In this document: one piece after another, positions 132 through 17,373 of the stretch
Layout: each line of letters opens with the position of its first letter
How positions within the stretch are numbered: position 1 is the stretch's first letter
NCBI GenBank assembly: GCA_040756475.1
Contig: JBFLZB010000004.1
Location: 1 to 33,632 of the forward strand
Reading direction: 5' to 3'
DNA from: Thermodesulfobacteriota bacterium
Lineage (GTDB): Bacteria > Desulfobacterota > Deferrisomatia > Deferrisomatales > JACRMM01
Length of the DNA: 33,632 bases
Notes under the pieces: generated by a model
Databases searched by the model: none
Told to the model about the DNA's origin: nothing
The model's input: only the letters and a program-made list of their open reading frames with translations
Position numbers and translations under genes: made by a program

Positions 132-1610
132 TTACACCCAGCGGGCGGTCACGGTCTTTTCGTCGAGGAACAGGCGCATGGAGGCCATGCGGCTCTTGGC
201 GCTGCCGAGGAAGGAGGTCTTCTTCGACCCCAGGGGGAAGAACGCGTAGGGCTGGGGCACCGCCACGTTGATCCCGATGTTGCCCACCTGGGCCTCCCGG
301 GTGAACTTGCGGGCGGTCTTCCCGCTCTCGGTGAAGATGCAGGCCGAGTGGCCGTACTCGGTGCCGTTGATCCAGCCCAGGGCCTCGTCGAGGCTCTGGG
401 CCCGCATGAGGACCGCCACGGGCCCGAAGGCTTCCTCCACCGAGGTCGGCATGTCGGGGCGGCCGTTCTCCAGGATGGTGGGGGCGAGCCAGTAGCCCCC
501 GGGATAGCCCTCCACCTTGGCGCCGCGGCCGTCGAGCACCATCTTCGCCCCTTCGCCCAGGGCCCGCTCGATCCAGTCGAGCACCTTGTCTCGCCCCGCC
601 GGGGTGCACATGGGCCCCTGGCCCACCGACTCGTCCAGGCCGTACCCGAGCTTCATGGTCTTGGCCGCGGCCACGAACTTCTCCTTGAGCTCGTCGTGGC
701 GGTCGCCCACCACGATGACGTTGTCCGAGCCCAGGCACCGCTGGCCGTTCATCCCGTAGCAGGAGCGCAGGAGCCAGACGGCGGCCTGGTTGAGGTCCGC
801 GTCGGGCATGATGACCACGTTGTTCTTGCCGTTTCCGTTGAGCGACGAGGGCTTGCCGAGCTCGCCGCACTGGCGGTGCAGATCCCACCCGGCGGAGGTC
901 GAGCCGATGAACCCAACCCCCTGGATCTCGGGCTGGCGCAGGATCTCCGCGTTGATGTGGCGCCCGCCGTGGATGAGGTTGATGACCCCCTTGGGGAAGA
1001 TCTCGGCGGCCACCCGGGTGATGGCGTCGGCGGCCACCGGGTCCTGGCGGCTCGGGCTCACCACCACCGTGCACCCCGCGGCCAGCGCGTAGGGCACGAA
1101 GGAGGACCAGGCGTGCATGGGGATGTTGCCCGGGGTGACGATGAGGAAGGCGCCCAGGGGCTCCCAGGTGAGCCACTGGTCGATGCCCGTGGCGAGCTGG
1201 TCGAGGTGTTCGTTTTCCTTGACGAGCCCGTAGGCGGCCGAGCACGCGGACTCCACGTTCTCGATCACCCGGCGCACCGAGCCCCGGCTCTCGTCGATGG
1301 TGCGGCCGTGGTCCTGGGTGAGGATGCGGGAAAGCTCCTCCTCCTTCTCGTCGAGCCGTCCGCGCAGGTCGAAGAGGAGCTTGGCCCGGTCGCGCAGGCA
1401 CACGTCCTTCCACGAAAGGAACGCGCGGTGGGCGGCCTCCACCGCGGCCCGGGCCTCGTCCTTGGTGGCCTCGGGGAACTGGGCGATCACCTCGCCCGTG
1501 GCTGGATTGGTCGTCTCCTGGACCACGGTGGAGCGGGATTCCACCCACTCTCCCCCAATCAGGAGCGGGAGCTTGCCGTAGTGCTTCTTTACTTCAGGTA
1601 GGAGGGCCAT
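132..1610 (-). CDS. MmsA-like CoA-acylating aldehyde dehydrogenase
   Basis: 492-residue aldehyde dehydrogenase superfamily protein closest in pattern to methylmalonate-semialdehyde dehydrogenase (MmsA/IolA), which oxidises 2-substituted malonate semialdehydes to acyl-CoA with loss of CO2. The catalytic Cys292 sits in NGQRC, with Arg291 directly before it as in MmsA. The general-base Glu of hydrolytic ALDHs is replaced by Asn258 (segment LNGNGKNN), which fits thioester transfer to CoA rather than hydrolysis. The 104-122 segment (TIDESRG...IENVESAC) is also MmsA-like. The ATG has an AGGAG site 5-6 bases upstream. It is the last gene of the minus-strand locus, 216 bases after DUF1185. In this context the likely substrate is 2-formylglutarate, giving glutaryl-CoA; this is inference. 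A true methylmalonate- or malonate-semialdehyde role is the alternative. Family assignment is firm, substrate is not. Confidence 0.85.
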   Translation of the reverse strand: MALLPEVKKHYGKLPLLIGGEWVESRSTVVQETTNPATGEVIAQFPEATKDEARAAVEAAHRAFLSWKDVCLRDRAKLLFDLRGRLDEKEEELSRILTQDHGRTIDESRGSVRRVIENVESACSAAYGLVKENEHLDQLATGIDQWLTWEPLGAFLIVTPGNIPMHAWSSFVPYALAAGCTVVVSPSRQDPVAADAITRVAAEIFPKGVINLIHGGRHINAEILRQPEIQGVGFIGSTSAGWDLHRQCGELGKPSSLNGNGKNNVVIMPDADLNQAAVWLLRSCYGMNGQRCLGSDNVIVVGDRHDELKEKFVAAAKTMKLGYGLDESVGQGPMCTPAGRDKVLDWIERALGEGAKMVLDGRGAKVEGYPGGYWLAPTILENGRPDMPTSVEEAFGPVAVLMRAQSLDEALGWINGTEYGHSACIFTESGKTARKFTREAQVGNIGINVAVPQPYAFFPLGSKKTSFLGSAKSRMASMRLFLDEKTVTARWV

Positions 1611-1826: not shown

Positions 1827-2405
1827 TTATCTTAAACCGTCCTCCTTCTTCGCTTCTGCGACGGTGAGCCCGCCGACGCGGGGCAGGGGGCGGCCGGAGT
1901 CGGTGACGACCAGGGCCACCACGATCTCGTCGTCCCGGGGGGCGTCCTGCACCCGCACCGGCATGGCGTCGAAGTGGGTGCGCACGAAGGCGGCGTGCTT
2001 GTAGTGGACGGGCACGTCGAGCTCGGTGCCCGGCACCCCCATCTTCTTCGAGGAGGGGATGATGGCCTTGCCTCCCCCAACGGCCTCCCGGAAGGGAGCG
2101 CCGAGCTTGGGGTGGAGGATGGCGGCCGCGTGCTCGAGCTCCCCTGCGGCGCCCACGATGGCTCCCTTGCCGTAGCTCTCGGCCTGGTCGGGGCGGATGC
2201 CCAGGGCCTCGACCGCCCGCTTCCCCAGGAGCGAGCCGAGCTCCTCCCCCGCCTGGACGAGCTCCCCCAGGTCCTCGGCGTAGCGGCCCGCGAAGGGGTT
2301 GGTGATGACGGCCAGGGCCGCCGCCCGGCGCGTCGGCGGGGTCACGGCCCGTCCCGCCTCGGCGCGGGTCTCCTCCACGATGGTCACGAGCTTGCGGATC
2401 TGCAC
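1827..2405 (-). CDS. DUF1185 / 'amino acid synthesis' family protein
   Basis: 192-residue protein that I recognise as the DUF1185 (AA_synth, Pfam PF06684) family: it begins VQIRKLVTIVEETRAEAG and contains the glycine-rich GKGAIVGAAGELEHAAAILHP stretch broken here for length, plus GGGKAIIPSSKK near residue 111. No reaction has been established for the family to my knowledge. The GTG start at 2405 has a strong GGAAGGAGGAG site a few bases upstream; a longer frame reading upstream to 3272 is only a shadow of the neighbouring gene. It lies 47 bases after the UPF0280 gene in the same direction, inside an apparent nicotinate-degradation locus, so a role in that pathway is likely but undefined. Confidence 0.8.
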   Translation of the reverse strand: MQIRKLVTIVEETRAEAGRAVTPPTRRAAALAVITNPFAGRYAEDLGELVQAGEELGSLLGKRAVEALGIRPDQAESYGKGAIVGAAGELEHAAAILHPKLGAPFREAVGGGKAIIPSSKKMGVPGTELDVPVHYKHAAFVRTHFDAMPVRVQDAPRDDEIVVALVVTDSGRPLPRVGGLTVAEAKKEDGLR

Positions 2406-2452
2406 GGTCTCTCCTCCTTCCGGTGATTGCTCTGTTCCATCCCGTGATCCCG

Positions 2453-3358
2453 TCAACATTTCCCGTCCGACATGGCCAGGCCCCCTTCCCCGGGCCAGCC
2501 GACAAAGCGCCAGCGGCCGCGCAGGGACAGGACCGCGCCGCGGATCAGGCCCTCGTCCACCCGGGCTCGGACCCAGGCGGCGCCCCGGTCCAGGGCGGTC
2601 TCGACCTCCCTCTCGGAGAGGGGGCCCACCCGCCGGGTGACGAGCCGGCCGGGGAGGTCGGTCTCCGGGTCGAGGGTCTCGGCGGGCACCCGCTCCACGG
2701 CGGGGGAGTCCACGCAGACCGCGTTGGCCGCGAGCGTCGCGGCGGCGTCGGCGAGGCCCGCCCGGCCGGCGAAGACGGTGGCGGCGTCGGCGATCCCCAG
2801 GGTGAAGCTCCGGCCCCCGAAGCCGCTGGTGGCGACGCCTCCGATCCCGTCCCCGGCGGTCACCAGGACCCGTGCCAGGGGGGCCGGCGCGTCCACCCGG
2901 GGTACCAGCCCCACCGAGGCCGACTCGCCGGAGGCCAACCGCAGGGCCACGTCCCCGCCGTTGCTCACCGCCACCCAGGTGGCCCCCTGCTCGGCCAGGC
3001 AGTCGGCGACGGCGTCGGCCACGACCCCGGCGACGGCGATGAGGGGGGTGACCGCTTCCTCGGCGAAGGGCCGGGGAGCCTCCACCAGGGCCCGGGTTGC
3101 CGGGGGCAGGGCGCCGGGGTTGCGGATGCGCCGCAGGTCCACGGCCAGGAGCCGGCGGTGGGCCGAGAGCTCCTCCAGGACCTCGAGGGCCCGGGCCCCG
3201 GCCGCCTCCAGACCCCCGGGCGGCAGCCCCCCGGGCCGGCGGGCGGCGAGCACCAGGCTCACCGGGCCCCACTCCACCCGGAGCCGCCCCCCGCCCAGGG
3301 GCTCCAGCCGGGGGTCCGGGGCGCCCTGGGCACGCGGCTCAGGGGCGGCGGCGGGCAA
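2453..3358 (-). CDS. UPF0280 family (ApbE-like) protein
   Basis: 301-residue protein of the UPF0280 family, distantly related to ApbE, the FAD:protein FMN transferase. Visible landmarks are FAEEAVTPLIAVAGVVADAV, VSNGGDVALRL (compare the ApbE glycine/Asp motif) and a DGIGGVATSG stretch. The start is a TTG at 3358 with GGAGGAGG 3-4 bases upstream, and the frame overlaps the end of the 6-hydroxynicotinate reductase gene by 20 bases, implying translational coupling. The E. barkeri homologue of that reductase is known to contain covalently bound flavin, so this protein is a plausible dedicated flavin transferase. UPF0280 proteins are not biochemically characterised to my knowledge, so the role is inference; family membership is secure. 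Confidence 0.82.
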   Translation of the reverse strand: MPAAAPEPRAQGAPDPRLEPLGGGRLRVEWGPVSLVLAARRPGGLPPGGLEAAGARALEVLEELSAHRRLLAVDLRRIRNPGALPPATRALVEAPRPFAEEAVTPLIAVAGVVADAVADCLAEQGATWVAVSNGGDVALRLASGESASVGLVPRVDAPAPLARVLVTAGDGIGGVATSGFGGRSFTLGIADAATVFAGRAGLADAAATLAANAVCVDSPAVERVPAETLDPETDLPGRLVTRRVGPLSEREVETALDRGAAWVRARVDEGLIRGAVLSLRGRWRFVGWPGEGGLAMSDGKC

Positions 3359-4853
3359 GGGCCTCCTCCAGGGGTCTTGCGGCCTCCAGGTGGCCTCCCA
3401 TGGCCTCGTAGTCCTCCCAGCGCATGGTGTACTCCACCGGGATCACCAGGGCGGGGGTGGGCACCCAGGAAAACGCCCCCCGGAGCACCCGCTCCACGTC
3501 CACCATGAAGTTGATCCCCCCGCCGGGCAGGAGGAACGCGGGCGCCCCCCCCACGGTGAGGCGGGCCTTGCGGGCGTGCACCGCCCGGGTGAGGCGGATC
3601 GGGTGCCGGGTCACCCCCGCCCGGGCGCTCCCTCCGGTGCCTCCGCAGTAGAGCACCGAGACCCGGCTCTCCTGGCAGGTCTCGGAGATGGCCCCGACCG
3701 CGCGGCGAACGCCCTCTGTCGGCTCCTCGGGGTGGAGGGCGCCGCCCGCTCCCACCCGGAAGTACGCAGACGACTGGCCGGTGGTCTCGGTGACGAGGAT
3801 GCGGGAGCCCGGCCGCACGTTCTCGAGACCGTCCGGGGCGAAGACCTCCCGGGGGTCCTGGATGGACGTGCCGCCCCAGCCGCTGCCGTGGTCCCCGAAG
3901 TACCGGCCGGGGGTGCTCTTGCGAAAGCGCAGCCGCACGCCGGACGGGGTCGCGCCCAGGTACCGGCCCGCCGCGTGCTCCGTGAGCAGCCCGGTCAGGT
4001 GGCTGTCGAGCACCACCACCTCGTCCGCCGCCTCGAGGAGGAGCGGCGCGAAGAGCCCCAGGGTGGCGCTTCCGCACCCCACCCGCATCACCCCGATGGG
4101 CTTGCCGTCCACCACCGGGGCATGCCCGGCCTGGACCTCCAGGCGGCTGCCCCCCTCCACCCGGAGCTTCACCCGCTCCCGGTTGGCGAGCGCGGTCATG
4201 ACCCGGGCGGCCCGGAAGCCGTGGGGCCCCGTGAGGGTGTTGGCGCCCCCCAGGGAGAGGATCTTCGAGCCGTACTCCTCGGTGGTGACGTGGCCGATCT
4301 TCTCGCCCCCGGCGAGCACGGCGGCCCCCTCCTGCCCCAGGTTGGCGTCGGTGTCGATCTTCACCTTGACGCTGCTGTAGGAGAGCGGGGTCTCGGTGAC
4401 CACCGTCACCACGTCGACCCCCTGGCTCACTCCCCGGACGATCACGGGGGCGGGCCGGCAGTCGGGGTAGGTGGTGCCGGCGCCGATTCCCGTTACCAGG
4501 GGCTCGCGCACGGCGGGCTCCCAGTCGGGCCCCACGACCTGGCGCACGTCCTCGAAGGTGCGAAGGGGCGCGTTGCGCACCAGGGTGCCTCCCCGGTTGG
4601 CGTAGCGCTGGCACGCCCCCGTGCCCCCCTCGGGGACCCGGCACGCCACCGGGCAGGACCCGCAGGTGATGCGCGGGTCGTCGGCGGGGAGCTCTTCGGC
4701 CACCGCCCCCTCGGGGCACACCCGCAGGCACACCCGGCAGTCCACGCACTCCGGCGAGATCACCGCCACCCGGTCCACCAGGGCCACGCACTCCAGGGGG
4801 CAGTTGGCGACGCACTTGCCGCAGGCGGTGCAGCGGTCAGGGAGAATCTTCAT
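3339..4853 (-). CDS. hnr: 6-hydroxynicotinate reductase
   Basis: 504-residue iron-sulfur protein matching 6-hydroxynicotinate reductase of the Eubacterium barkeri nicotinate pathway, which reduces 6-hydroxynicotinate to 1,4,5,6-tetrahydro-6-oxonicotinate. The N-terminus carries two ferredoxin-type clusters (Cys8/11/14/18 and Cys36/39/42/46), followed by another Cys set (64, 67, 71, 81; CGSCPVAC then GACQRY). The long C-terminal part contains the family stretch TETPLSYSSVKVKIDTDANL and EEYGSKILSLGGANTLTG. The ATG at 4853 is chosen because it starts right at the first cluster; a frame 30 residues longer merely translates a tandem repeat. Covalent flavin is known in the E. barkeri enzyme. No perfect ApbE target motif is visible; partial ones are GSAT (Thr264) and LGAT (Thr302). 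The gene overlaps the UPF0280 gene. Confidence 0.88.
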   Translation of the reverse strand: MKILPDRCTACGKCVANCPLECVALVDRVAVISPECVDCRVCLRVCPEGAVAEELPADDPRITCGSCPVACRVPEGGTGACQRYANRGGTLVRNAPLRTFEDVRQVVGPDWEPAVREPLVTGIGAGTTYPDCRPAPVIVRGVSQGVDVVTVVTETPLSYSSVKVKIDTDANLGQEGAAVLAGGEKIGHVTTEEYGSKILSLGGANTLTGPHGFRAARVMTALANRERVKLRVEGGSRLEVQAGHAPVVDGKPIGVMRVGCGSATLGLFAPLLLEAADEVVVLDSHLTGLLTEHAAGRYLGATPSGVRLRFRKSTPGRYFGDHGSGWGGTSIQDPREVFAPDGLENVRPGSRILVTETTGQSSAYFRVGAGGALHPEEPTEGVRRAVGAISETCQESRVSVLYCGGTGGSARAGVTRHPIRLTRAVHARKARLTVGGAPAFLLPGGGINFMVDVERVLRGAFSWVPTPALVIPVEYTMRWEDYEAMGGHLEAARPLEEALARRRP

Positions 4854-4942: not shown

Positions 4943-4970
4943 CCCTTCACGTTTCACCCTTCACCTTTCA
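4943..4970. repeat. Heptamer array (CCCTTCA-type) running into the enamidase stop
   Basis: Four 7-bp units (CCCTTCA, CGTTTCA, CCCTTCA, CCTTTCA) adjoin the nonamer array. The last unit contains the complement of the enamidase stop codon (4968-4970), so the array begins exactly where the gene ends. Confidence 0.75.
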
Positions 4971-6134
4971 CCCCTTCGTCACCGCTGCGTCTCGCTTGGC
5001 CGGGGGGGTGTTGCGGCTCTTCTTGACCACGATCTCCCCGTCCACCAGCACGATGCTCACCCCGGGGGTGTCGCCGGCCCGGTAGGCGGACAGGAGGTCG
5101 TCCCCCACCGAGCCCATGGGGGCGTCGCAGAAGACGAGGTCTGCCGGGGCGCCCACGGCGATGCGGCCCTGGGGGAGCTTGTGGCAGCGGGCGGTGTTGC
5201 CCGTGGCCCAGGCGATGGCCACGGCCGGGTCCACGTCCGCGAGGCTCGCCAGGTGGGCGATCACCCGCTGGACCCCCAGGGGGATGACGCCGGTGCCCGA
5301 GGGCGCGTCGTTGCCCAGGACGACCCGCTCCAGGGCGCCCGCGTCCACCGCCTCGCGGGCCGCGTGGACGGCCATCCGGGGATTGCCGCAGTGGACGATC
5401 TCCACGTAGACCCGGCCGTCCCTCACGATGGTCGCGATCTCGCCGGGGCTTACCGCCGTGGGGCCCCCGTTGGTGTGGCACGCCACGTCGGCGCCCGCGG
5501 CCAGGACCTCCTGGGCCGTCACCGTGGAGGAACCCGGGATGGAGGTGCCCCCCATGTGCATGAGCACCGTCATGCCCTGGGCCTTCGCCCACGCCACCAT
5601 GGGGCGGGCTTCCTCGGGAGTCTTGATGGCGCCCAGGCCGATTTCCCCCACGGTGCGCACCCCGGCCCGGGCCATCTCGGCGAAGTCTGCCTCGGTCAAG
5701 CCGGGCTCGAGGATCACGGCCCCCCCCACGACCTTCATCCCCCCGGGCCGGAAGGCCGCGAAGGACCGGGCGGCGAGGATGGCCAGGGCCTTGACCCCGG
5801 CCGGGTCCTTGGGGCGGCCGGGCAGGTGCACCTCTCCCGCGCTGATCGCCGTGGTCACCCCCCCGTGGACCTCGCTCTCCAGAAACCCCACCTGGTGCTG
5901 CCGGGGGGTGTAGTCGCCCAGCACCGGGTGGACGTGGGAGTCGATGAGGCCGGGCGTCACGGCGCAGCCCCGGGCGTCGATCACCCGGTCCGCCGCCGAG
6001 GCCGCCACGTCGGCTTCCCGGCCCACCGCGGCGATCCTGCCGCCCTCCAGGAGCAGGGTGTCGGCGTCGAGGAGCGGCGCGCCCACGTCCCCCGAGACCA
6101 CGAGCCCCACGTTCAAAATTTTCGTCAGAGACAT
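4968..6134 (-). CDS. ena: Enamidase-type amidohydrolase
   Basis: 388-residue amidohydrolase-superfamily enzyme matching enamidase of anaerobic nicotinate degradation, which hydrolyses tetrahydro-6-oxonicotinate to 2-formylglutarate and ammonia. Metal-site features are GLIDSHVHP near residue 60, a His-containing VLMHMGGTS segment, VACHTNGGP, and the late Asp in VVLGNDAPSGTG. It has no signal peptide and should be cytoplasmic. The ATG at 6134 has GGAGGAG just upstream. The gene follows the molybdenum subunit with a one-base gap and precedes the reductase whose product it would use, so the pathway order supports the assignment. A dihydroorotase- or imidazolonepropionase-like role is less likely given the neighbours. 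Confidence 0.86.
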   Translation of the reverse strand: MSLTKILNVGLVVSGDVGAPLLDADTLLLEGGRIAAVGREADVAASAADRVIDARGCAVTPGLIDSHVHPVLGDYTPRQHQVGFLESEVHGGVTTAISAGEVHLPGRPKDPAGVKALAILAARSFAAFRPGGMKVVGGAVILEPGLTEADFAEMARAGVRTVGEIGLGAIKTPEEARPMVAWAKAQGMTVLMHMGGTSIPGSSTVTAQEVLAAGADVACHTNGGPTAVSPGEIATIVRDGRVYVEIVHCGNPRMAVHAAREAVDAGALERVVLGNDAPSGTGVIPLGVQRVIAHLASLADVDPAVAIAWATGNTARCHKLPQGRIAVGAPADLVFCDAPMGSVGDDLLSAYRAGDTPGVSIVLVDGEIVVKKSRNTPPAKRDAAVTKG

Positions 6135-6135
6135 C

Positions 6136-8391
6136 TCACTCCTCCGGATTCCCCTGTCCGTCCAACGCCTCGAGCACCCGCTCGAGGCTGGCCGGCAGGT
6201 CGCAGATCCTCTTCCCGCAGGCCCGGCTCACGGCGTTGACCACCGCCGGGGCCGTGGGGATGAGGGCGGGTTCCCCGACCCCCTTGGCGCCGTAGGGGCC
6301 CGTGGGCTCGCGGCACTCCACGAACATGGGGGTGAGTCGCGGCACGTCCAGCGCCGTGGGGACGAGGTAGGTGTCGAGGTTTCGGTCCTGGCCCGGGCGA
6401 AACTCCTCCATGAGTGCTGCGCCCAGGCCCATGGCCACTCCTCCCGTGATCTGGCCGAGCACTCCGGGGGGGTAGAGGGCCCGGCCCACGTCGTGGGCCG
6501 CCGCCAGGCGCTCCACCCGCACCTGGGCGGTGGCGCGGTCCACCGCGACCCGGGCCACCTGGGCAGCAAACGCGTAGGTGCCGTAGGGGCGGCCCTGCCC
6601 CGTGCGGTGGTCCAGGGCCGAGGTGTCGGGGTCGAAGCTCCCGGCCTCCCTCGGGGCTTCCCCGGCGGCGGCGAAGGCCTGGGCAAGCTTCGGGAGCTCC
6701 ATCTCCCATGTCGGCTGGGAGCGGCTGCGCACCCGCCCGTCCGCCAGCTCGAGCTGCGCGCCGGGCACTCCCAGGAGCTCCCCGGCCCGGGCCAGGAGCC
6801 TGTCTCGCAGGCGGCCGGCGGCCTCGAGGACCGCGCCTCCCGAGATGTAGGTCTGGCGGCTGGCGGAGGTGGCCCCCGCGTTGGTGGTGCGGCCGGTGTC
6901 GCCCCGCACCAGGCGCACGCGGTCGGGATCTTCCCCCAGGGCCTCGGCGCAGATCGCCAGGAGCACCTGGTCCGAGCCCTGGCCGATGTCGGCCGCGCCG
7001 GTGAAGAGGGTGAACCGCCCGTCGGAGCCGAGCTCCACCTGGGCCGTGGAGGGGTTGGAGACGCCCGTGTTGCCGATGCCGTAGAACATGGCCCCCACGC
7101 CGATGCCCCGGAGGAAGTCCCGGTCGCTCCGGCAGGCGCGGCTCCAGCGGTCGCGCACCGCGTCGATCTTCTCCAGGCAGGGGACGATCCCCACGCTGTG
7201 CGTGAGCACCTGCCCGGTAACCGTAGCGTCGCCGGGCCGCAGGGCGTTGCGAAGGCGCAGGGAGACCGGGTCCATCCCCAGGGCCTCGGCCAGCAGGTCC
7301 ATCTGGCTCTCGTGGCCGAACGCGGCCTGGGGGGTGCCGAAGCCGCGCATGGCCCCGGAGAAGGGGTGGTTGGTGTATACGGCGCGGGAGCGGATGCGGG
7401 CGTGGGGTACCCGGTAGGGTCCGGCGGCGTGCACGGCGGCCCGCATGGCCACCGCCAGCGCGTAGGAGGCGTAGGCGCCGGTGTCGGCCAGGAGGTCGGC
7501 CTCCACGGCCAGGAGGTTCCCCTGGGCGTCGGCGGCGCTGCGGTAGCGCATGGCGAAGGGGTGGCGCTTGCCCGACGCCAGGAAGGACTCCTCCCGGGAG
7601 TACACCAGGCGCGAGGGCCGGCCCGTGTGCCAGGTAGCCAGCGCCACGTAGAGCTGGGCCGAGAGGTCGAGCTTGCCCCCGAAGCCGCCGCCGGTGGGGG
7701 CCTGAACCACCCGGACGCGCTCTGCCGAGAGCCCCAGCAGCCGGCACAGGTCGTCCCGGTCGTAGTGGGGGTTCTGGGTGGAGCAGGTCACCGTGAGGAC
7801 GCCCTCCTCCATCCAGGCCACCGCCGCCTCGGGCTCCAGATAGGCGTGCTCGACCCAGGTGGTGCGGTAGGTGCGCTCCACCACCACCGCCGCGCGGGAA
7901 AAGGCCGTCTCCACGTCGCCCCGCTCCACACGCTGCTCGAAGCAGAGGTTCCCCTTCTCATGGATGGGAGCCGCGTCGGCGGCCAGGGCGGCAATCGGGT
8001 CCCGGAGCACCGGCAGGGGGTCGTAGACGACCGAGACCCGGCTCGCCCCCAGGGCCGCCGCCTCCGGCGTCTGCGCCGCCACCAGGGCCACGGCGTCCCC
8101 GACGAACCGCACCCGGTCGGTGAGGAGGGGCTGGTCCGCGGTGAGGCGGATGATGCCGTAGCGGTTCTCCCCGGGCACGTCGGCGGCGGTAAAGACCCGC
8201 ACAACTCCTGGGACCGCCAGCGCCGGCGCGGCGCGCACCTCGGCCACCCGGGCGTGGGCCTCGGTGGAGCGCACCACCGCCAGGTGCAGCACCCCTCCCA
8301 CCTTGAGGTCGGCGGTGAAGCGAAGCGTCCCCAGGACCTTCTCCAGGGCGTCCCGGCGGGGCCGCCGGGAGCCGATGGCGCGGGCGCTCAT
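6136..8391 (-). CDS. Nicotinate dehydrogenase-type molybdenum subunit
   Basis: 751-residue molybdopterin-binding subunit of the xanthine dehydrogenase family, probably hydroxylating nicotinate at C6. An N-terminal a/b hammerhead domain (residues about 15-125) is followed by the molybdopterin domains with APTGGGFGGKLD, MRGFGTPQAAFGHE, and the C-terminal GAKGVGEPALIPTAPAVVNA, whose Glu is the catalytic base in this family. In Eubacterium barkeri the equivalent subunit is split in two; here it is one chain. The ATG at 8391 overlaps the FAD-subunit stop by 4 bases. The substrate is inferred from the neighbouring 6-hydroxynicotinate reductase and enamidase genes. Whether the enzyme carries labile selenium like the E. 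barkeri one cannot be seen. Confidence 0.85.
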   Translation of the reverse strand: MSARAIGSRRPRRDALEKVLGTLRFTADLKVGGVLHLAVVRSTEAHARVAEVRAAPALAVPGVVRVFTAADVPGENRYGIIRLTADQPLLTDRVRFVGDAVALVAAQTPEAAALGASRVSVVYDPLPVLRDPIAALAADAAPIHEKGNLCFEQRVERGDVETAFSRAAVVVERTYRTTWVEHAYLEPEAAVAWMEEGVLTVTCSTQNPHYDRDDLCRLLGLSAERVRVVQAPTGGGFGGKLDLSAQLYVALATWHTGRPSRLVYSREESFLASGKRHPFAMRYRSAADAQGNLLAVEADLLADTGAYASYALAVAMRAAVHAAGPYRVPHARIRSRAVYTNHPFSGAMRGFGTPQAAFGHESQMDLLAEALGMDPVSLRLRNALRPGDATVTGQVLTHSVGIVPCLEKIDAVRDRWSRACRSDRDFLRGIGVGAMFYGIGNTGVSNPSTAQVELGSDGRFTLFTGAADIGQGSDQVLLAICAEALGEDPDRVRLVRGDTGRTTNAGATSASRQTYISGGAVLEAAGRLRDRLLARAGELLGVPGAQLELADGRVRSRSQPTWEMELPKLAQAFAAAGEAPREAGSFDPDTSALDHRTGQGRPYGTYAFAAQVARVAVDRATAQVRVERLAAAHDVGRALYPPGVLGQITGGVAMGLGAALMEEFRPGQDRNLDTYLVPTALDVPRLTPMFVECREPTGPYGAKGVGEPALIPTAPAVVNAVSRACGKRICDLPASLERVLEALDGQGNPEE

Positions 8392-9260
8392 GCCGGCACC
8401 TCCCCGCGTCCCGCGGCAAAGGCCTCCAGGGCCTGGCGCAGGGCCCGGGTAACGCAGCGGCGCGCCACGGGCAGCTTGTAGGCCATGGAGGGGCGCCCCC
8501 CCGAGACCCCCCGCACGGCCGCTTCCGCCGCGCGCCCGGCCTCCTCCAGGAAAGGCTCGGAGAACCCCCGGTGGAGCACCTCCTCGGCGCCGGTCAGCCG
8601 CTGGGGCCGCGGGAAGACCGCCCCCAGGGCGACCCGGGCGAGCCCGGTCTCGGGGTTGGCCATGGCCGCCACCGAGAGGCGGCTGATGGCCGCGGCGCGC
8701 CGCCGCCCCACCTTGAGGAAGGCCGCTCCGTGGGGGGGCTCCAGGGGGATGCGGATGGCCGTCAGGAGCTCGCCGGACGCGAGGCACGTCGCCCCGGGGC
8801 CCCGGAAGAAGTCCTCCAGGGGCACGCGCCGCTCGCCCCCGGGGCCCGCCACCTGGAAGCGGGCGCGAAGCACCGCCAGGGCGGGCAGGGTGTCGGCGGC
8901 CACGGAGGCGTTGACGGCGTTGCCCCCTACGGTGCCGAGGTTGCGGACCTGCACCGATCCCACCGCCGCGCAGGCCTGGGCCAGCACCGGCGCCAGCCGC
9001 CGCACCAGGGGGCTCTCGGCGGCCTCGGCGTGGGTGATCGCGGCGCCCAGGAGCAGCGTGCCGTCCTCTTCCTCCCGGACCTCCCGGAGCTCGGGCACCC
9101 GGGTGACGTCCACGACCGCCCGGGGCGCGGCCTTCCCGTGGCGCACCGCCACCAGGAGATCCGTGCCCCCGGCCACGGGGCGCCCCCCTTCGCCCTCGCG
9201 CTGGAGGGCGGCCAGCGCCTGCCCGAGGCTGGCCGGCCGCAGGTAGCGAAAGCCGGTCAT
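8388..9260 (-). CDS. Molybdenum hydroxylase FAD subunit
   Basis: 290-residue FAD-binding subunit (CoxM/NdhF-type) of the molybdenum hydroxylase. FAD contacts typical of the family are visible: PVAGGTDLLVAVR near residue 29 and GSVQVRNLGTVGGNAVNASVAADTLPAL near residues 99-126. The C-terminal part is the CO dehydrogenase flavoprotein C-domain. It passes electrons between the 2Fe-2S subunit and an external acceptor. The ATG at 9260 shares ATGA with the stop of the 2Fe-2S subunit, and its own stop overlaps the start of the molybdenum subunit, so the three subunits are made by coupled translation. Confidence 0.88.
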   Translation of the reverse strand: MTGFRYLRPASLGQALAALQREGEGGRPVAGGTDLLVAVRHGKAAPRAVVDVTRVPELREVREEEDGTLLLGAAITHAEAAESPLVRRLAPVLAQACAAVGSVQVRNLGTVGGNAVNASVAADTLPALAVLRARFQVAGPGGERRVPLEDFFRGPGATCLASGELLTAIRIPLEPPHGAAFLKVGRRRAAAISRLSVAAMANPETGLARVALGAVFPRPQRLTGAEEVLHRGFSEPFLEEAGRAAEAAVRGVSGGRPSMAYKLPVARRCVTRALRQALEAFAAGRGEVPA

Positions 9261-9751
9261 CGGGGGGCCTCCCCCCCACCGCCGATTCGGGCCGCGGCGT
9301 GCACCGCGTCCACGATCTGGTTGTAGCCCGTGCACCGGCAGAGGTTTCCCGAGAGGGCGACCCGGATCTCCTCCCGGGTGGGCCGGGGGTTGCGGTCCAG
9401 GAGCGCCTTGGCCGAGAGCAGCATGCCCGGCGTGCAAAAGCCGCACTGCACGGCACCCTTATCGACGAACTTCTCCTGGAGGGGGTGGAGCGCCTCGGCC
9501 CCCCCCAGCCCCTCCACCGTGACCACGTCTCGCCCCTCGGCCTTCCCGGCCAGCACGAGACACGCGTTCACGGCCCGGCCGTCGACGAGCACGGTGCATG
9601 CCCCGCACTCCCCGACCCCGCACCCCTCCTTGGCGCCGGTGAGGTCGAAGTGCTCCCGCAGGAGCCACAGGAGCGAGCGGTGGGGCTCCACCTCGGCCCG
9701 AACGGACCTGCCGTTCAAGGTGAATGCGACGGAAATTCGGGTGTCGTCCAT
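9257..9751 (-). CDS. Molybdenum hydroxylase 2Fe-2S subunit
   Basis: 164-residue small subunit (CoxS/NdhS-type) with two [2Fe-2S] clusters. The plant-ferredoxin-like cluster is GCGVGECGACTV with a further Cys in NACLV; the second cluster uses CGFCTPG and CRCTGY in the alpha-helical domain. It shuttles electrons from the molybdenum centre to FAD. The order small, medium, large is common for this enzyme family. The start ATG at 9751 follows the MttB-like gene by 38 bases, suggesting one transcript for methyltransferase and hydroxylase. Confidence 0.9.
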   Translation of the reverse strand: MDDTRISVAFTLNGRSVRAEVEPHRSLLWLLREHFDLTGAKEGCGVGECGACTVLVDGRAVNACLVLAGKAEGRDVVTVEGLGGAEALHPLQEKFVDKGAVQCGFCTPGMLLSAKALLDRNPRPTREEIRVALSGNLCRCTGYNQIVDAVHAAARIGGGGEAPR

Positions 9752-9789: not shown

Positions 9790-11232
9790 CTACGCCGTCA
9801 GTTCCCGGTCCGCCGCCGCCACCAGGGCGTCGAGCTCGGCGCAGACCTCGGGCGGTGCAACCGGCGGCCGCTCCTGCGCCGTGAGCGCGCGCATCCGTTC
9901 CAGGGCCCGCGCGGCGAGGTCGCTGCGGCCCTTGGCCTCCCAAGCCGCCAGGCCGTCCCGAGTGAGCAGGCGCGGCCGGTAGGCTTCGCGGCAGTGGCGC
10001 AGGGTGTGCTTGCGCCGCAGGAACTCCGCGCCGGGCTCCGTGGCCAGGAGGTCCGCCCAGCCCAGCGTCTCGTCGTCCACGGCGAGCTCCTGGCGGAAGC
10101 GGCGCAGCCACTGGGCGATCTCTTCGTCGAGGACGAGCTGCACGGGGCTTACGGTGGTGGCGACCTCGAGCTGGCCGGCGCCTCCGAGGATGTCGGCGCC
10201 CGCCGCGGCCACCGCCCCGGCCAGGAGGGTACTTTCCAGAACGGACTGGTCCCCGGGCACGGGGCCGTCCGAGCCGAACCCGTAGGTGTGGGTCGGCAGG
10301 CCGAAGGCGGCCTTGAGGAACGCCACCGCGGCGGCTTTGCCCTGCACCGCCTCGACGCTCGACTGGACGCTCGAGCCCGTGGCCATGTCTCCGAAGAAGA
10401 TCAAGGGCGTGGCGATCACGGGCGCGCCCGGCTGGAGGGTCTGGGCCACGGCCGCCATGACCACGATCTCGGCCGCGGCCAGGAGGATCGTGCCCGGGAT
10501 GGTGATGGGAGCCGTGGTGCCCGCGCTGGGCAGGCTGCACGCGTGGAGCGGCACCCCCGCGGCGCTCGCCTGGACGATGATCTCCAGGTCCATGCGCTTG
10601 AAGTCCAGCGGGGTGAGCGAGCAGGTGATCATGCTGATGCGGGGGCGCTCCCGCAGGGCGCGCTCGCCCCCGCAGGCGGCCGCCGCCAGGCGCAGCAGGT
10701 GCACGACGCTCTCCCCGCTGTAAGGCTGCACCCACACGTGCTTGCGGGTGTTGCGCAGCATGCACCGCAGCCCGTGGACGTCCGCCGTCTGGACCGGCAC
10801 CCCGCTCGGGGAGGGGAACGGGCAGAAGTCCACCCCGTCGAGGGAGTCGGCGAGCCGGGCCCACAGGGCCAGGTCGTCGGGGGTGACGTTGCGGCGCTCC
10901 CCGGAGTCGGGATCGAGGTAGAAGGGGGCGCCCGTGTTGGAGCGCACGAGGAAGGCCCCGTCCGGGCAGGGAACCGTTCGGTCCCGGGCCGGCTCGGCGC
11001 CCGCCAGAGTGACGCTGCGGGGCGCCCGCTCCAGGGCCCTCTCGAGGAAGGCTTCCGGGAACCGGACGCGGCCCGACTCCCGGTCCACGTCGGCGCCCGC
11101 CCCGGCGAGGCGTTCGAGGACGAGGGGGTGGTCCAGGCGCACGCCGGTGCGGCCCAGGAGCTCGAACACCCGGCTGCGCAGCAGGGCGCGGCCCTCGTGG
11201 GAGAAGTAGGCGTTCTCGGTTCTCGTGCTCAT
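9790..11232 (-). CDS. MttB-family (non-pyrrolysine) methyltransferase
   Basis: 480-residue member of the trimethylamine methyltransferase MttB superfamily (COG5598), which moves methyl groups from quaternary or tertiary amines to a corrinoid protein. Family stretches include NTRKHVWVQPYSGESV, PLIFFGDMATGSSVQSS, HTYGFGSDGPVPGDQS and ADILGGAGQLE. There is no in-frame amber codon, so it belongs with the non-pyrrolysine members such as the glycine betaine enzyme MtgB. ATG at 11232 has AAGGAG nine bases upstream. It sits between a TRAP transporter and the nicotinate hydroxylase genes; demethylation of N-methylnicotinate (trigonelline) would give the substrate of the next enzyme. That substrate is inference. 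No corrinoid protein or reductive activator is encoded in the window. Confidence 0.86.
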   Translation of the reverse strand: MSTRTENAYFSHEGRALLRSRVFELLGRTGVRLDHPLVLERLAGAGADVDRESGRVRFPEAFLERALERAPRSVTLAGAEPARDRTVPCPDGAFLVRSNTGAPFYLDPDSGERRNVTPDDLALWARLADSLDGVDFCPFPSPSGVPVQTADVHGLRCMLRNTRKHVWVQPYSGESVVHLLRLAAAACGGERALRERPRISMITCSLTPLDFKRMDLEIIVQASAAGVPLHACSLPSAGTTAPITIPGTILLAAAEIVVMAAVAQTLQPGAPVIATPLIFFGDMATGSSVQSSVEAVQGKAAAVAFLKAAFGLPTHTYGFGSDGPVPGDQSVLESTLLAGAVAAAGADILGGAGQLEVATTVSPVQLVLDEEIAQWLRRFRQELAVDDETLGWADLLATEPGAEFLRRKHTLRHCREAYRPRLLTRDGLAAWEAKGRSDLAARALERMRALTAQERPPVAPPEVCAELDALVAAADRELTA

Positions 11233-11290: not shown

Positions 11291-12589
11291 TCACTTCAAG
11301 ACACTGGGCAGCCAGAGGGCGATCTGGGGAAAGAACATCAGGAGCGCGATATTGAGGTAGATCGGGATCAGGAAGGGCAAAGAACCCTTCACGATGGTCC
11401 CCATGCTGTGTTGCGGCACCACGCTTCGCAGGACGAAGAGGCTCAAGCCGAAGGGGGGCGTGATGGTGCTCTGCTCGCCGGCCATCACGTACACGACGCC
11501 CCACCAGATCGGGTCGAACCCGAGGGCGACGATGATGGGCATCACGAAGGGAAAGGTGAGGAAGAGCATGGACCAGGAGTCGAAGAACATCCCCATGACG
11601 AGGTACATGAGGAAGAAGAGCGCCAGGATGCCGTAGCGTCCCACGGGGAGGGCCACCACGAAGTCCTTGAGCAGCGCGATCACCCCGGCGGAGTTGAAGA
11701 CGTGGGACATGAGCGAGGACATGGCCATGATGAAGAGCGAAAACGACGTGATCTTCACCGTGTCGTAGAGACTCGTCTTGAAGATCTGCCAGGTCAGCTT
11801 CCGGTACCCCAGGGTGAGGACGATGCTCAGGAACGCCCCGAGGCTCGCCGCCTCGGTGGCGGTCATGAAGCCCCCGAAGATGGCCCCGAGGACCCCGAAG
11901 ATGAGCCCTGCGAAGGGCAGGACCTCGAGCACCGCGCCAAACTTCTCCTTCCAGGTGTGGTGCACCGGGGCGGGGGCGAGGCGGGGGTTGATCTTGACCC
12001 ACACGATGATCGTGAGGATGAAGAAGACGGCGAGCAGGACTCCGGGGATCAGGCCGGCGGCCAGCAGGTCTACGATGGACAGCCCCTGCCACGCGCCGAA
12101 GATGATGAGCAGGATGCTCGGGGGAATCAGCGGGGCCAGGATCGTCCCCGAGGCGATGGCCCCCAGGCCGAGCTTGGGCGAGTAGCCGCGGGCCTCCATG
12201 GCCGGCCACGCGATCTTGCCGAATGTGGCGGTAGCCGCGATGGTCGAGCCGCACATGGCGCCGAAGACCGCGTTGCCCCCGATGATGGAGCACGCGAGTC
12301 CCCCCGGGAGCCCGCCGGTCCACTTGTCGATGGCGGCGAAGAGGCGCTCGTTCACCCCGGTGTTGCCCAGGATGGCCCCCATGAGAATGAAGAGCGGCAT
12401 GGCGCTCAACGTGAATGAGTTGAGGGAGCCAAAGGCGGTGTAGGCAAGCTGGTCGATGGGTTGGCCCACGTACCACACGAGCCCGACTACGGCGATGACG
12501 CCCACGGCCCAAGCGATCTCGAGCCCCAGGAGGAGGAGCACGAGGAGCCCGGCCACCAGGGCGAGGCCGAAGAGTCCTTCGGGGCCCAT
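11291..12589 (-). CDS. dctM: TRAP transporter large membrane subunit (system 1)
   Basis: 432-residue DctM-type subunit with about 12-13 hydrophobic segments, which forms the sodium-driven channel of a tripartite ATP-independent transporter. Family signatures include FGAMCGSTIAATATFGKIAWPAM, split here as FGAMCGSTIAAT and IAWPAME, and LIPPSILLIIFG. The start is the ATG at 12589, sharing a base with the small-subunit stop; a 35-residue extension upstream is out-of-frame noise from dctQ. It is followed after 58 bases by the MttB-like gene, so the transported solute is probably the substrate of that pathway (quaternary amine or nicotinate); this is inferred from position only. Confidence 0.9.
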   Translation of the reverse strand: MGPEGLFGLALVAGLLVLLLLGLEIAWAVGVIAVVGLVWYVGQPIDQLAYTAFGSLNSFTLSAMPLFILMGAILGNTGVNERLFAAIDKWTGGLPGGLACSIIGGNAVFGAMCGSTIAATATFGKIAWPAMEARGYSPKLGLGAIASGTILAPLIPPSILLIIFGAWQGLSIVDLLAAGLIPGVLLAVFFILTIIVWVKINPRLAPAPVHHTWKEKFGAVLEVLPFAGLIFGVLGAIFGGFMTATEAASLGAFLSIVLTLGYRKLTWQIFKTSLYDTVKITSFSLFIMAMSSLMSHVFNSAGVIALLKDFVVALPVGRYGILALFFLMYLVMGMFFDSWSMLFLTFPFVMPIIVALGFDPIWWGVVYVMAGEQSTITPPFGLSLFVLRSVVPQHSMGTIVKGSLPFLIPIYLNIALLMFFPQIALWLPSVLK

Positions 12590-13095
12590 CAGACCTCCTT
12601 CTCCCAATCGGGACCCGCGAGCGCCTTCACGAGCTCCGCGAGGAGCTGGAGGGTGAGGAGCCCGGAGCCGAGCACCAGCGAGAGCTGGGGCCACTGCATG
12701 GGCACTCGGAGCCAGCTTCCGCTGCGGGTTCCGAAGAGCATCGTGAAGGAGACGAGGTCGTAGCTCGCCTGGATCATCACGAAGCCGAAGGCCGCGGCCA
12801 CGGCCAGGGTGACCACCCGGAGGACCCGCTGCACCTTGGGAGGAAGAACCGTGACCAGGAACTCCACCCGCACGTGTCCCCGTTCCTTCCAGGTGTACCC
12901 GAGACCCAGAAAGGTGACCGCGACGAGGGCGTACCCCCCCATCTCGTCCGCCACCGCGATGGGCGCCGTCGGCAGCACGTACCGGGTGAAGACCTCCACC
13001 AGGATCAGCGCCATGAGGAGGAAGACCGCCCAGCCCATCAGGTGGCCCACCACGTCCGAGACGAGGTCCATGGACCGAACCAGGCGCCTGACCAT
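12589..13095 (-). CDS. dctQ: TRAP transporter small membrane subunit (system 1)
   Basis: 168-residue DctQ-type subunit with four hydrophobic helices; the family stretch WKERGHVRVEFLV lies after the second helix. The ATG at 13095 has GGGGGAG upstream, and an in-frame extension of 49 Arg/Gly-rich residues is read from the GC-rich hairpin region and is not likely real. It overlaps dctM by one base. Confidence 0.88.
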   Translation of the reverse strand: MVRRLVRSMDLVSDVVGHLMGWAVFLLMALILVEVFTRYVLPTAPIAVADEMGGYALVAVTFLGLGYTWKERGHVRVEFLVTVLPPKVQRVLRVVTLAVAAAFGFVMIQASYDLVSFTMLFGTRSGSWLRVPMQWPQLSLVLGSGLLTLQLLAELVKALAGPDWEKEV

Positions 13096-13115
13096 GCCCA
13101 ACGCTCCCCCGCGGG

Positions 13116-13144
13116 GGGCGGCGGGGGGCGCGCCCCCGCCGCCC
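13116..13144. promoter_or_regulatory. GC hairpin between dctP1 and dctQ1
   Basis: A perfect 12-bp stem (GGGCGGCGGGGG with its complement, loop GCGCG) lies between the stop of the binding-protein gene and the start of the small membrane subunit. No T-run follows. Such hairpins commonly stabilise the upstream part of a transcript, giving more binding protein than membrane subunits; that use is inference. Confidence 0.6.
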
Positions 13145-13151
13145 GCGCGGC

Positions 13152-14222
13152 TCACTTGCCCGTGAAGGCGCGGTACTTGGCGACCACGTCGCGAATCACG
13201 GCGAGGAGCTCGGTGCCCTCCTTGCCGGTCTGCTTGAGCCACTCCGCCTCGACGGGCTTGGCGAGCTCAAGGGCCCGTGCCTGGTCCTCCTTGGAGAGTT
13301 GCACGCGCTTGACGCCGCTCAGCTCCACCGCGTCCACGCTCAGGATGTACTCCGCCGTGGTGGACAGGCTCACCATCTGCTCCACCTCGCGCCCGACGTC
13401 CATCAGGATCTTCTGGAGGTCCGCCGGGAGGGACTCGAACTTCCGCTTGTTGACCACCGTCACGGCGGTCCAGGTGGGGGACAGCGGGGTGAGGGTGAAC
13501 GTCTTGGACGCCTGGGCGAGCCCGATGGAGTACCCGTACCCCAGGCTCGTGAGCACGGCGTCGATGGTGCCGGCCATCATGGCGGGGGCGAGCTCGGAAC
13601 CCGAGATCGTCACGGGGCCCATGCCCAGGGCCCGGAGCCCGATGGTGGGCAGGGAACCCCCTGCCCGCACCTTGAGGCCCTTGAGGTCATCGAGGGTCTT
13701 GACGTCCTTCTTGGCCCACACCCCGTTGGCCGGGTCCCACTGGGTGACGAACCAGTACTTGAGGTTGAGCTTGCCCATGGTCTCGTCGTAGACCTTGCGC
13801 ACCCGGGGGTCCTGGTAGATCGCGAGCTCCTCGGCCAGGCCCTGCACCGGGTCCTCGGCGACGATGCCCGGGATCTCGCCCCAGTTCCAGAGCGGGTAGG
13901 TGCCCGAGTGCCAGGGCATGGGAACGTCACCCAGGTCGGCCTTGCCCTGGGCCACGGCCTGGAGGATGTCGGTGGAGGGGAACATGCGGGAGATGATCTT
14001 GAGCTGCAAGCGCCCGCCGCTGCGCTCGTGGAGCATGCGCTGGAGCACCCCTCCGGGGGCGTACACCTGGGAGGCGCGGAACTTGGGCCCCCAGATGTCG
14101 TTCCAGGCGAAGGTGAGCTCGTGCACCTGCTTGTCCTGGGATTGCGCCGCGGGAGGCGTTGCCGCGAGCCCTCCGAGGATGCACCCCACTGCCAGAACCC
14201 CCAGGCCCCATCGCTTGCCCAT
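13152..14222 (-). CDS. dctP: TRAP transporter substrate-binding protein (system 1)
   Basis: 356-residue periplasmic DctP-family binding protein. An N-terminal signal peptide (KRWGLGVLAVGCILGGLA, cleavage near AAQSQ) is followed by the two-lobed binding fold, including VWAKKDVKTLDDLKGLKVRA with the Arg that usually contacts the solute carboxylate, and a GTIDAVLTS hinge segment. A carboxylate-bearing ligand is therefore likely. The ATG has AGGAGGTG 4-5 bases upstream. It is the first gene of its transport operon, preceded by a promoter and palindrome at 14272-14319. Confidence 0.9.
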   Translation of the reverse strand: MGKRWGLGVLAVGCILGGLAATPPAAQSQDKQVHELTFAWNDIWGPKFRASQVYAPGGVLQRMLHERSGGRLQLKIISRMFPSTDILQAVAQGKADLGDVPMPWHSGTYPLWNWGEIPGIVAEDPVQGLAEELAIYQDPRVRKVYDETMGKLNLKYWFVTQWDPANGVWAKKDVKTLDDLKGLKVRAGGSLPTIGLRALGMGPVTISGSELAPAMMAGTIDAVLTSLGYGYSIGLAQASKTFTLTPLSPTWTAVTVVNKRKFESLPADLQKILMDVGREVEQMVSLSTTAEYILSVDAVELSGVKRVQLSKEDQARALELAKPVEAEWLKQTGKEGTELLAVIRDVVAKYRAFTGK

Positions 14223-14271
14223 CCCACACCTCCTCGTCGTGGCGCTCCGTCGCGGTGAACCGTGCCCTCCG

Positions 14272-14286
14272 TTAACTATTTGTTAA
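14272..14286. promoter_or_regulatory. Palindrome at the dctP1 start site (candidate operator)
   Basis: TTAAC-TATTT-GTTAA is an inverted repeat in an AT-rich island of an otherwise GC-rich locus. It covers the expected transcription start just downstream of the promoter at 14291-14319, a position suited to repressor binding. The XRE-cupin protein at 17374-17946 is the obvious candidate, though the palindrome next to that gene differs in sequence. Confidence 0.5.
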
Positions 14287-14290
14287 GCGC

Positions 14291-14319
14291 AATAAAGCAT
14301 GCCTTAGCGAACGCGTCAA
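14291..14319 (-). promoter_or_regulatory. Sigma-70-type promoter for the dctP1 operon
   Basis: Reading the minus strand, TTGACG (14319-14314) is followed after 17 bases by TTTATT (14296-14291), matching the -35 box in 5 of 6 and the -10 box in 4 of 6 positions. It is inside the 125-base gap between dctM2 and dctP1, so the downstream transport and catabolic genes may have their own promoter. Confidence 0.55.
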
Positions 14320-14347
14320 GCAGAGAGTTGCCCCGCGGACGGCCGGG

Positions 14348-15661: not shown

Positions 15662-16152
15662 CGCTTCACCAGCCTTCCCGCGGCGTCTCCCAGGTCCAGC
15701 AGGAGCTCGAGCAAGAGGGTGGCCCCGGCCAGGGCCACCAGGAGTTTGAACGGCTTCTGGGGCACCCGAAGCATGTCGGAGACCGCCCGCTCCTCCATCC
15801 CGACCTCCCACCCCTGCCAGGCGAGGACCCCCACGATGCCGATGCTGAGCAGGGTGGTGAGCACGTCGATGGCCGCCGCGCCCCGGGGAGGCAGCCGCGA
15901 GGTGAGCATCTCGACGCGCACGTGGCCCTTGGTCTGTTGGGTGTAGGCGATGCCCAGGAGCACGAAGATCGCCAAGAGGTAGCTCGAGAGCTCCACCGCC
16001 CCGGGGATGGGCCGGGACCAGACGGCCCGGCCCACCACCTCGGCGGAGGTGAGCAGCATGAGGGGCACCAGGGCGAACATGCCCGCAAAGGACAGGCCGT
16101 AGGTGGTCGCGCGAATGGTCCGGCGAAACGGCGTCAGGATCTCCATGGTCAC
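15658..16152 (-). CDS. dctQ: TRAP transporter small membrane subunit (system 2)
   Basis: 164-residue DctQ-type protein with four hydrophobic segments and the family stretch QQTKGHVRVEMLTSRL after the second. The GTG at 16152 is preferred over the ATG two codons later because the AAGGA motif lies about seven bases before the GTG. It overlaps dctM by 4 bases and follows the binding-protein gene after 85 bases that hold a heptamer array and a small hairpin. Confidence 0.88.
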   Translation of the reverse strand: MTMEILTPFRRTIRATTYGLSFAGMFALVPLMLLTSAEVVGRAVWSRPIPGAVELSSYLLAIFVLLGIAYTQQTKGHVRVEMLTSRLPPRGAAAIDVLTTLLSIGIVGVLAWQGWEVGMEERAVSDMLRVPQKPFKLLVALAGATLLLELLLDLGDAAGRLVKR

Positions 16153-16187
16153 CCGCTCTTCCTTGTGATGGGCGCCCTACGACTCCA

Positions 16188-16218
16188 ACGGACAACGGAC
16201 AACGGACAACGGACAACG
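16188..16218. repeat. Heptamer array, family B (ACGGACA-type)
   Basis: Four perfect tandem copies of ACGGACA plus a partial fifth, between dctP2 and dctQ2. This is the most regular array in the window and is the reverse-oriented form of the array at 4859-4893. Confidence 0.9.
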
Positions 16219-16222
16219 AGCA

Positions 16223-16237
16223 GCGCGCTTCGCGCGC
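16223..16237. promoter_or_regulatory. Hairpin directly after the dctP2 stop
   Basis: GCGCGC-TTC-GCGCGC forms a 6-bp stem touching the stop codon of the binding-protein gene. As in system 1, a hairpin separates the binding protein from the membrane subunits, which may protect the dctP part of the message. Confidence 0.45.
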
Positions 16238-17305: not shown

Positions 17306-17373
17306 CGTCGACCTCCTGTGTGTTGGGGTTGCTCTGCCAGGCCTTCCTGCCTCCGAGAACCCGCCCACCCCGT

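Follow-up and report, generated by a model that had tools for sequence, protein, structure and literature searches.

A UPF0280 protein encoded beside 6-hydroxynicotinate reductase as its probable maturation factor and candidate flavin transferase

We analyzed a 33,632-nucleotide stretch of DNA from a Thermodesulfobacteriota bacterium (NCBI GenBank assembly GCA_040756475.1, contig JBFLZB010000004.1, positions 1 to 33,632 of the forward strand; hereafter, the window), in which hnr, the gene for 6-hydroxynicotinate reductase (Hnr), is followed by the gene for a UPF0280 protein. Based on comparisons across genomes, UPF0280 is very probably a maturation factor dedicated to Hnr. The Eubacterium barkeri Hnr is reported (Alhapel et al. 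2006, PNAS) to contain a covalently bound flavin together with one [2Fe-2S] and two [4Fe-4S] clusters, and sequence and structure-model comparisons make UPF0280 a reasonably probable transferase for this flavin. Flavin transfer is the leading explanation because Hnr and UPF0280 co-occur strongly and the Mg2+/GGD/TSG core of the flavin transferase ApbE is conserved in UPF0280. A sequence-only reading of the window had proposed the same role; the linkage and the core speak for it, whereas the loop with the catalytic histidine of ApbE is gone from UPF0280.

Linkage of UPF0280 to Hnr

The assignment of the hnr gene (Table 1) holds because its product has 8 + 4 conserved cysteines (120 homologues), which fit two [4Fe-4S] clusters and one [2Fe-2S] cluster, and because it lies in a cluster with dehydrogenase and enamidase genes. 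The window Hnr is 48% identical to that of E. aggregans, which in turn is 98% identical to E. barkeri Hnr. Bases 3339-3358 are common to the hnr and UPF0280 open reading frames (ORFs), as the sequence-only reading had stated, given a TTG start of UPF0280 at position 3358 on which this 20-bp overlap rests (no ATG settles the start). Genome G401 was assigned to E. barkeri because its enamidase and 2-(hydroxymethyl)glutarate dehydrogenase (HgdD) align over their full lengths, with no visible mismatch, to PDB 2VUN and 3CKY, the E. barkeri enzymes. At its nicotinate locus (L346), hnr (11839-10343) overlaps the UPF0280 gene (10359-9514) by 17 bp, so the pair seen in the window is also the pair in the organism from which Hnr was purified.

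The co-occurrence survey that the sequence-only reading had called for was strongly favorable, both in genomes and in loci, E. barkeri included. Searches for Hnr, UPF0280, ApbE and HcyBio covered 297 genomes sampled from the phylum of the window; Hnr-type UPF0280 was defined by a score of >170 bits to our profile A1. Full-length Hnr and Hnr-type UPF0280 were each found in 48 genomes, 47 of which contain both (Fisher 1.7e-52, uncorrected for relatedness). In the sole genome with Hnr and no Hnr-type UPF0280 (G170), hnr is at the edge of its contig, and a UPF0280 gene begins there but is cut off by the edge. Conversely, the only Hnr-type UPF0280 in a genome minus Hnr (G184) has NGED in place of NGGD and has lost the GRS motif (GHPG), decay as expected of a gene without use.

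Named genomes widened the range past this phylum to Firmicutes, Alphaproteobacteria, an actinobacterium, a planctomycete record and three archaea. Among 114 unique Hnr loci from Bacteria and Archaea, 104 had at least 1 kb of downstream sequence; in 99 of these, a UPF0280 gene of the same orientation follows hnr at no more than about 1.3 kb, and in 95 the two adjoin directly, with a median gap of 27 bp between profile matches. In the five exceptions, UPF0280 is on another contig of the genome (L061 in G144), 2.3 kb and 1.6 kb away (L163 and L173, respectively), elsewhere in the genome (L181 in G313), or absent from the 6.5 kb downstream of a more diverged (45%) Hnr paralogue that is accompanied by enamidase (L071 in G023). 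This paralogue keeps the segment DVVTVVT discussed below and has Ile at position 264. At the 65 loci with long flanks, UPF0280 was found in 64, XdhA in 58, enamidase in 47 and AA_synth in 44. No Hnr-UPF0280 gene fusion was noticed among the loci, which were not searched systematically for fusions. A literature search, which did not cover Alhapel et al. 2006 (PNAS) or Rauch & Perona 2016, returned no link of UPF0280 to Hnr.

Kinship to ApbE and a candidate flavin acceptor

The window UPF0280 matches NCBIfam NF003322 (PRK04334.1-2) with 226 bits (E 5e-67), short of the 290 bits set as its equivalog cut-off, and sequence searches alone reached just one solved relative, PDB 2o34 (DVU1097; profile E 2.5e-23). 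Its AlphaFold model (pLDDT, the predicted local distance difference test, 94.9) contains the double T-fold of ApbE: the best Foldseek match is again 2o34, and all other confident matches are ApbE, FmnB or Ftp. In a profile-profile alignment with ApbE (E 8e-10), NGGD pairs with NxGGD, TSG with TSG and ADAAAT, the Mg2+-ligand motif, with ADALAT. With the Pfam ApbE model (PF02424), the window protein scores 16 bits, under the cut-off of 25.6, which is exceeded by several other Hnr-linked UPF0280s (29.5 bits in E. barkeri, 32.1 in L158 and 27.8 in L174). The kinship to ApbE claimed earlier is thus borne out by fold, core and profile, and it is weak by Pfam and lacks the histidine loop H-x-x-[DN]-P, where the alignment has a gap and UPF0280 has G-G-R-S instead. 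By sequence and model, UPF0280 is a member of the ApbE superfamily, although, with one defining feature missing, it is not filed as ApbE proper; it may work like ApbE nonetheless. Further differences from ApbE, FmnB and Ftp are a dedicated partner for each clade and the absence of a hydrophobic N-terminus or lipobox from the window and E. barkeri UPF0280s. No conserved cysteine is present in Hnr-type UPF0280.

ApbE recognizes the motif D-x-x-[ST]-G-A-[ST] and attaches flavin mononucleotide (FMN) to its last residue (PMC12052999). The sequence-only reading was right that Hnr has no perfect copy of this motif; only its spacing is kept, in the form [DE]xx[ST]xx[ST], and the putative UPF0280 target rule would be relaxed accordingly. 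In an alignment of 121 Hnrs, a single conserved window of this form was found (DVVTVVT, residues 147-153; column-shuffle P 0.019), with D/E at 147 in 119 sequences, T150 in all 121 and Thr (115) or Ser (6) at 153. A window of this form is likewise unique in HcyBio, a homocysteine-synthesis protein considered below (DVVTTGT; P 0.0084); it precedes a conserved Cys by five residues and is nearer to the ApbE motif than that of Hnr. Both P values are guides only, the pattern having been picked after the segment was seen; an unbiased Hnr-HcyBio profile comparison singles out the same DxxTxxT segment. On this basis, Thr153 is a tentative candidate for the flavin acceptor. The two residues named by the sequence-only reading exist but did not qualify as obligatory acceptors: Thr302 (LGAT) is S/T in just 27/121 Hnrs, and Thr264 (GSAT) is replaced by V/I/A in L067, L171, L172 and L177, all of which have an adjacent UPF0280.

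In the proposed mechanism, UPF0280 would be a cytosolic, ApbE-derived maturation enzyme with Hnr as its one client. It would bind flavin adenine dinucleotide (FAD) and Mg2+ through the conserved NGGD-TSG-ADAxAT core and attach the flavin, presumably as FMN and through the phosphoester linkage that ApbE makes, to a hydroxyl conserved in Hnr, with Thr153 in D147-x-x-T150-x-x-T153 as the best candidate. The bound flavin could serve as a one-/two-electron switch, taking single electrons from the ferredoxin-type clusters and delivering two to the 6-hydroxynicotinate ring. As an Fe-S enzyme, Hnr is expected in the cytosol. Cytosolic ApbEs exist, and K. pneumoniae fumarate reductase is likewise a soluble cytosolic target, but the K. 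pneumoniae enzyme is a true ApbE that uses the canonical motif (PMC12052999). If the mechanism is correct, it explains the source of the covalent flavin of Hnr and extends ApbE-type flavinylation in the cytosol to dedicated enzyme-client pairs with a different target rule.

Several points weigh against flavin transfer by UPF0280. The segment with Thr153 lies in a predicted beta-strand, and ApbE targets carry their motif at a loop or helix; the strict ApbE motif was not found in Hnr. The covalent flavin of Hnr is taken here from a single 2006 abstract, for one organism. The co-occurrence statistics for the 297 genomes take no account of shared ancestry. Because UPF0280 lacks the loop that supplies the general base of ApbE, identical chemistry is not to be assumed, and earlier authors, as cited in PMC5764234, held that the homology stops short of the flavin-binding region.

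The fold of the Hnr catalytic region offers little comparison: a search with the Hnr model returned zero PDB matches at E<=0.001, with only the ferredoxin part plausible, and by this model the region is possibly a new flavoenzyme fold. Residues 163-195 give a near-cut-off match to the C-terminal barrel of glycine-cleavage T-protein (PF08669; 25.4 vs 25.9 bits). In alphaproteobacterial and actinobacterial Hnrs (L173, L175, L176 and L178-L181), the query match begins only at about residue 50-62, and these proteins seem to be without the 2x[4Fe-4S] domain while keeping the Cys4 site.

Partner-specific clades and alternative roles

UPF0280 corresponds to COG2122 (e.g., MA1715 and DvMF_0044), and the family cannot be called uncharacterized, as the sequence-only reading had it: homocysteine synthesis in Desulfovibrio vulgaris requires COG2122 along with DUF39 (HcyBio) and a NIL/ferredoxin protein, and the fitness profiles of COG2122 and DUF39 are nearly identical (r 0.98; PMC5764234). 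A tree of 59 UPF0280s separates Hnr-linked from other copies into two groups (100/100), and the archaeal copies linked to Hnr fall on the Hnr side. In genomes without Hnr, the weaker-scoring UPF0280 branch tracks HcyBio (PF01837): both are found in 148 genomes, one alone in 9 and 8, and neither in 84. Among the 19 named Hnr genomes, 14 are without HcyBio and have a single strong UPF0280 match, which is of the Hnr type; the other five, which do have HcyBio, each contain an additional UPF0280 that shares a contig with HcyBio and, in four of them, lies near it. No neighbor is common to most loci of the non-Hnr clade, some of which contain HcyBio and NIL-ferredoxin genes. MA1715, DvMF_0044 and DVU1097 (2o34) thus resemble the window protein in family and in their tie to a ferredoxin-coupled reductive enzyme, but they differ in partner (DUF39/HcyBio and NIL-ferredoxin), belong to the separate clade, mostly have GHS instead of GRS, and are shorter.

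This clean split by partner suggests that two ferredoxin-linked enzymes are served by a single family of flavin transferases. The wider proposal, that UPF0280/COG2122 proteins are cytosolic flavin transferases with one clade for each client (Hnr vs the homocysteine-forming DUF39/HcyBio, L-ASST), is speculative and the odds are against it as a whole; ComF/MMP16 is a possible further client. A single co-linear local profile match joins Hnr 143-235 to HcyBio 43-131, and unrelated families score lower. Homology of the two is not claimed, the comparison being suggestive and not significant (P 0.014; 2/300 column shuffles reach the score). By analogy, the flavin-switch logic would also suit ferredoxin-coupled two-electron reduction in homocysteine synthesis. 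If the proposal were true, a widespread ApbE-like family tied genetically to methionine synthesis in sulfate reducers and methanogens would gain a molecular function, and an unrecognized covalent flavin would be predicted in homocysteine, perhaps coenzyme M, biosynthesis. On this view, the enzyme behind sulfide-dependent homocysteine synthesis would be a covalent flavoprotein that has escaped notice, and what looks like a 'sulfur trafficking' defect in COG2122 mutants would reflect failed cofactor attachment.

The loss of the catalytic-His loop leaves room for a partner that handles flavin in Hnr maturation and is not itself a transferase, either supplying or cleaving FAD, as does T. pallidum Ftp, a protein of the same fold that hydrolyzes FAD (PMC4767422), or acting as an assembly chaperone. 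Flavin attachment would then be autocatalytic, e.g., at Cys260, which is invariant outside the Fe-S sites, or at a conserved histidine (His293 is near-invariant in the 121 Hnrs). We consider this role rather unlikely: the Mg-site Asp and Thr are invariant in UPF0280, and clades matched nearly one-to-one to their partners suit a substrate-specific modifier over a general FAD supplier. A sulfur or persulfide carrier serving the Fe-S clusters of Hnr, with their 12 cysteines, would follow from the COG2122 literature, in which M. acetivorans needs MA1715 to assimilate sulfide when sulfide is scarce and a modification by persulfide has been proposed (PMC5764234, PMC12068725). This role is less likely again, given that Hnr-type UPF0280 has no conserved Cys; nor would a sulfur carrier for homocysteine synthesis be expected in the 14 of the 19 named Hnr genomes that keep Hnr-type UPF0280 though HcyBio is missing from them.

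Two further explanations separate UPF0280 from Hnr. The client of UPF0280 could be a different product of the nicotinate cluster, such as enamidase or the dehydrogenase, since UPF0280 is encoded in the same cluster and subunits of the xanthine dehydrogenase (XDH) type recur in 58/65 long-flank loci; this is very unlikely, as UPF0280 adjoins hnr itself in most loci and remains with Hnr at loci (e.g., L044, L047, L051, L053, L056 and L057) that have XDH-type subunits and are without nearby enamidase or AA_synth, perhaps encoding a related reductase for another N-heterocycle. Least credible is that a canonical ApbE flavinylates Hnr, leaving UPF0280 a bystander or in some other role. One canonical ApbE is encoded in the genome of the window and one in E. 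barkeri, but a strong PF02424 match is missing from 21 of the 48 Hnr genomes in the 297-genome sample, many of them >90% complete, and from 7 of the 19 named ones, and Hnr and ApbE show no significant association (P 0.21). Of the ApbEs inspected from Hnr genomes, most look exported, having a lipobox or a run of hydrophobic residues at the start (E. barkeri ApbE has a lipobox-type signal there). UPF0280 and Hnr have no such start, and Hnr does not offer ApbE its strict motif.

The nicotinate gene cluster of the window

The genes around the pair form a row on the minus strand (Table 1), in which the amidohydrolase and the XDH-type subunits have counterparts in the E. barkeri nicotinate cluster (hnr, hgd, ndhFSLM, ena, mgm, mii), as do the AA_synth gene and the overlapping hnr and UPF0280 genes. 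In E. barkeri, hgd and then ndhF/S/L/M-type genes come past this pair. None of the E. barkeri hgd, mgm and mii genes was found in the window stretch examined, which differs in having an aldehyde dehydrogenase of the methylmalonate-semialdehyde dehydrogenase (MMSDH) type.

Table 1 Features of the window, with positions in the 33,632-nucleotide stretch
Feature	Position	Strand	Basis or remark
XDH-type dehydrogenase subunits, as a group	9745-6136	-	Head of minus-strand gene row
[2Fe-2S] subunit of XDH-type dehydrogenase	9257..9745	-	PF01799
FAD subunit of XDH-type dehydrogenase	8388..9260	-	PF00941
Molybdopterin subunit, nicotinate-dehydrogenase type (XDH family)	6136..8391	-	PF02738, PF20256
Enamidase-like amidohydrolase	4968..6134	-	PF01979; profile built on it finds E. 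barkeri enamidase 2VUN
hnr, 504 amino acids, ATG start	3339..4853	-	ORF and homology
Hnr architecture: N-terminal 2x[4Fe-4S] ferredoxin domain, further Cys4 [2Fe-2S]-type site, catalytic region	3339..4853	-	Conserved Cys
Hnr 147-153 DVVTVVT, ApbE-like spacing (Thr153, candidate acceptor, 4395-4397)	4395..4415	-	Sole conserved [DE]xx[ST]xx[ST] window
Hnr Cys260, alternative covalent-flavin or catalytic residue	4074..4076	-	C in 121/121
Hnr Thr264 (GSAT)	4062..4064	-	S/T in 116/121
Hnr Thr302 (LGAT)	3948..3950	-	T/S in 27/121, not conserved
Overlap of hnr end and UPF0280 start, 20 bp	3339..3358	-	Depends on inferred TTG start
UPF0280/COG2122 protein, ApbE superfamily, 301 amino acids, TTG start	2453..3358	-	NF003322, 226 bits
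UPF0280 NGGD (N133-D136), counterpart of ApbE GGD	2951..2962	-	Invariant; aligned to ApbE
UPF0280 TSG (T177-G179), counterpart of ApbE TSG	2822..2830	-	Profile alignment
UPF0280 ADAAAT (A203-T208), match to ApbE Mg2+ ligands at D204/T208	2735..2752	-	D, T invariant; aligned to ADALAT
AA_synth protein, second conserved protein of cluster	1827..2426	-	PF06684, 247.6 bits
Aldehyde dehydrogenase, MMSDH type	132..1610	-	PF00171; TIGR01722, 378.6 bits

The best NCBIfam match of the aldehyde dehydrogenase (TIGR01722) is below the model cut-off. Because its closest kin is the coenzyme A (CoA)-acylating MMSDH, the enzyme could convert 2-formylglutarate to glutaryl-CoA and CO2, which would differ from the hydroxymethylglutarate exit of E. 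barkeri. AA_synth recurs beside UPF0280 in most Hnr loci that contain enamidase and is possibly tied to the enamidase step. Farther along the minus strand are components of a TRAP transporter (12589-17437; DctP at 13152-14222 and 16238-17437, DctQ at 12589-13242), which probably takes up the pathway substrate. A methyltransferase of the MTTB family (PF06253) is encoded at 9790-11232 on the same strand, beside the nicotinate genes, and the E. barkeri locus (L346:17686-19827) has an MTTB-family gene with genes for a corrinoid protein, a URO-D family protein and a CobW protein. Our guess from these gene contexts is that the MTTB-family enzymes encoded beside the nicotinate genes demethylate an N-methylated pyridine, trigonelline for example, and thereby supply nicotinate.

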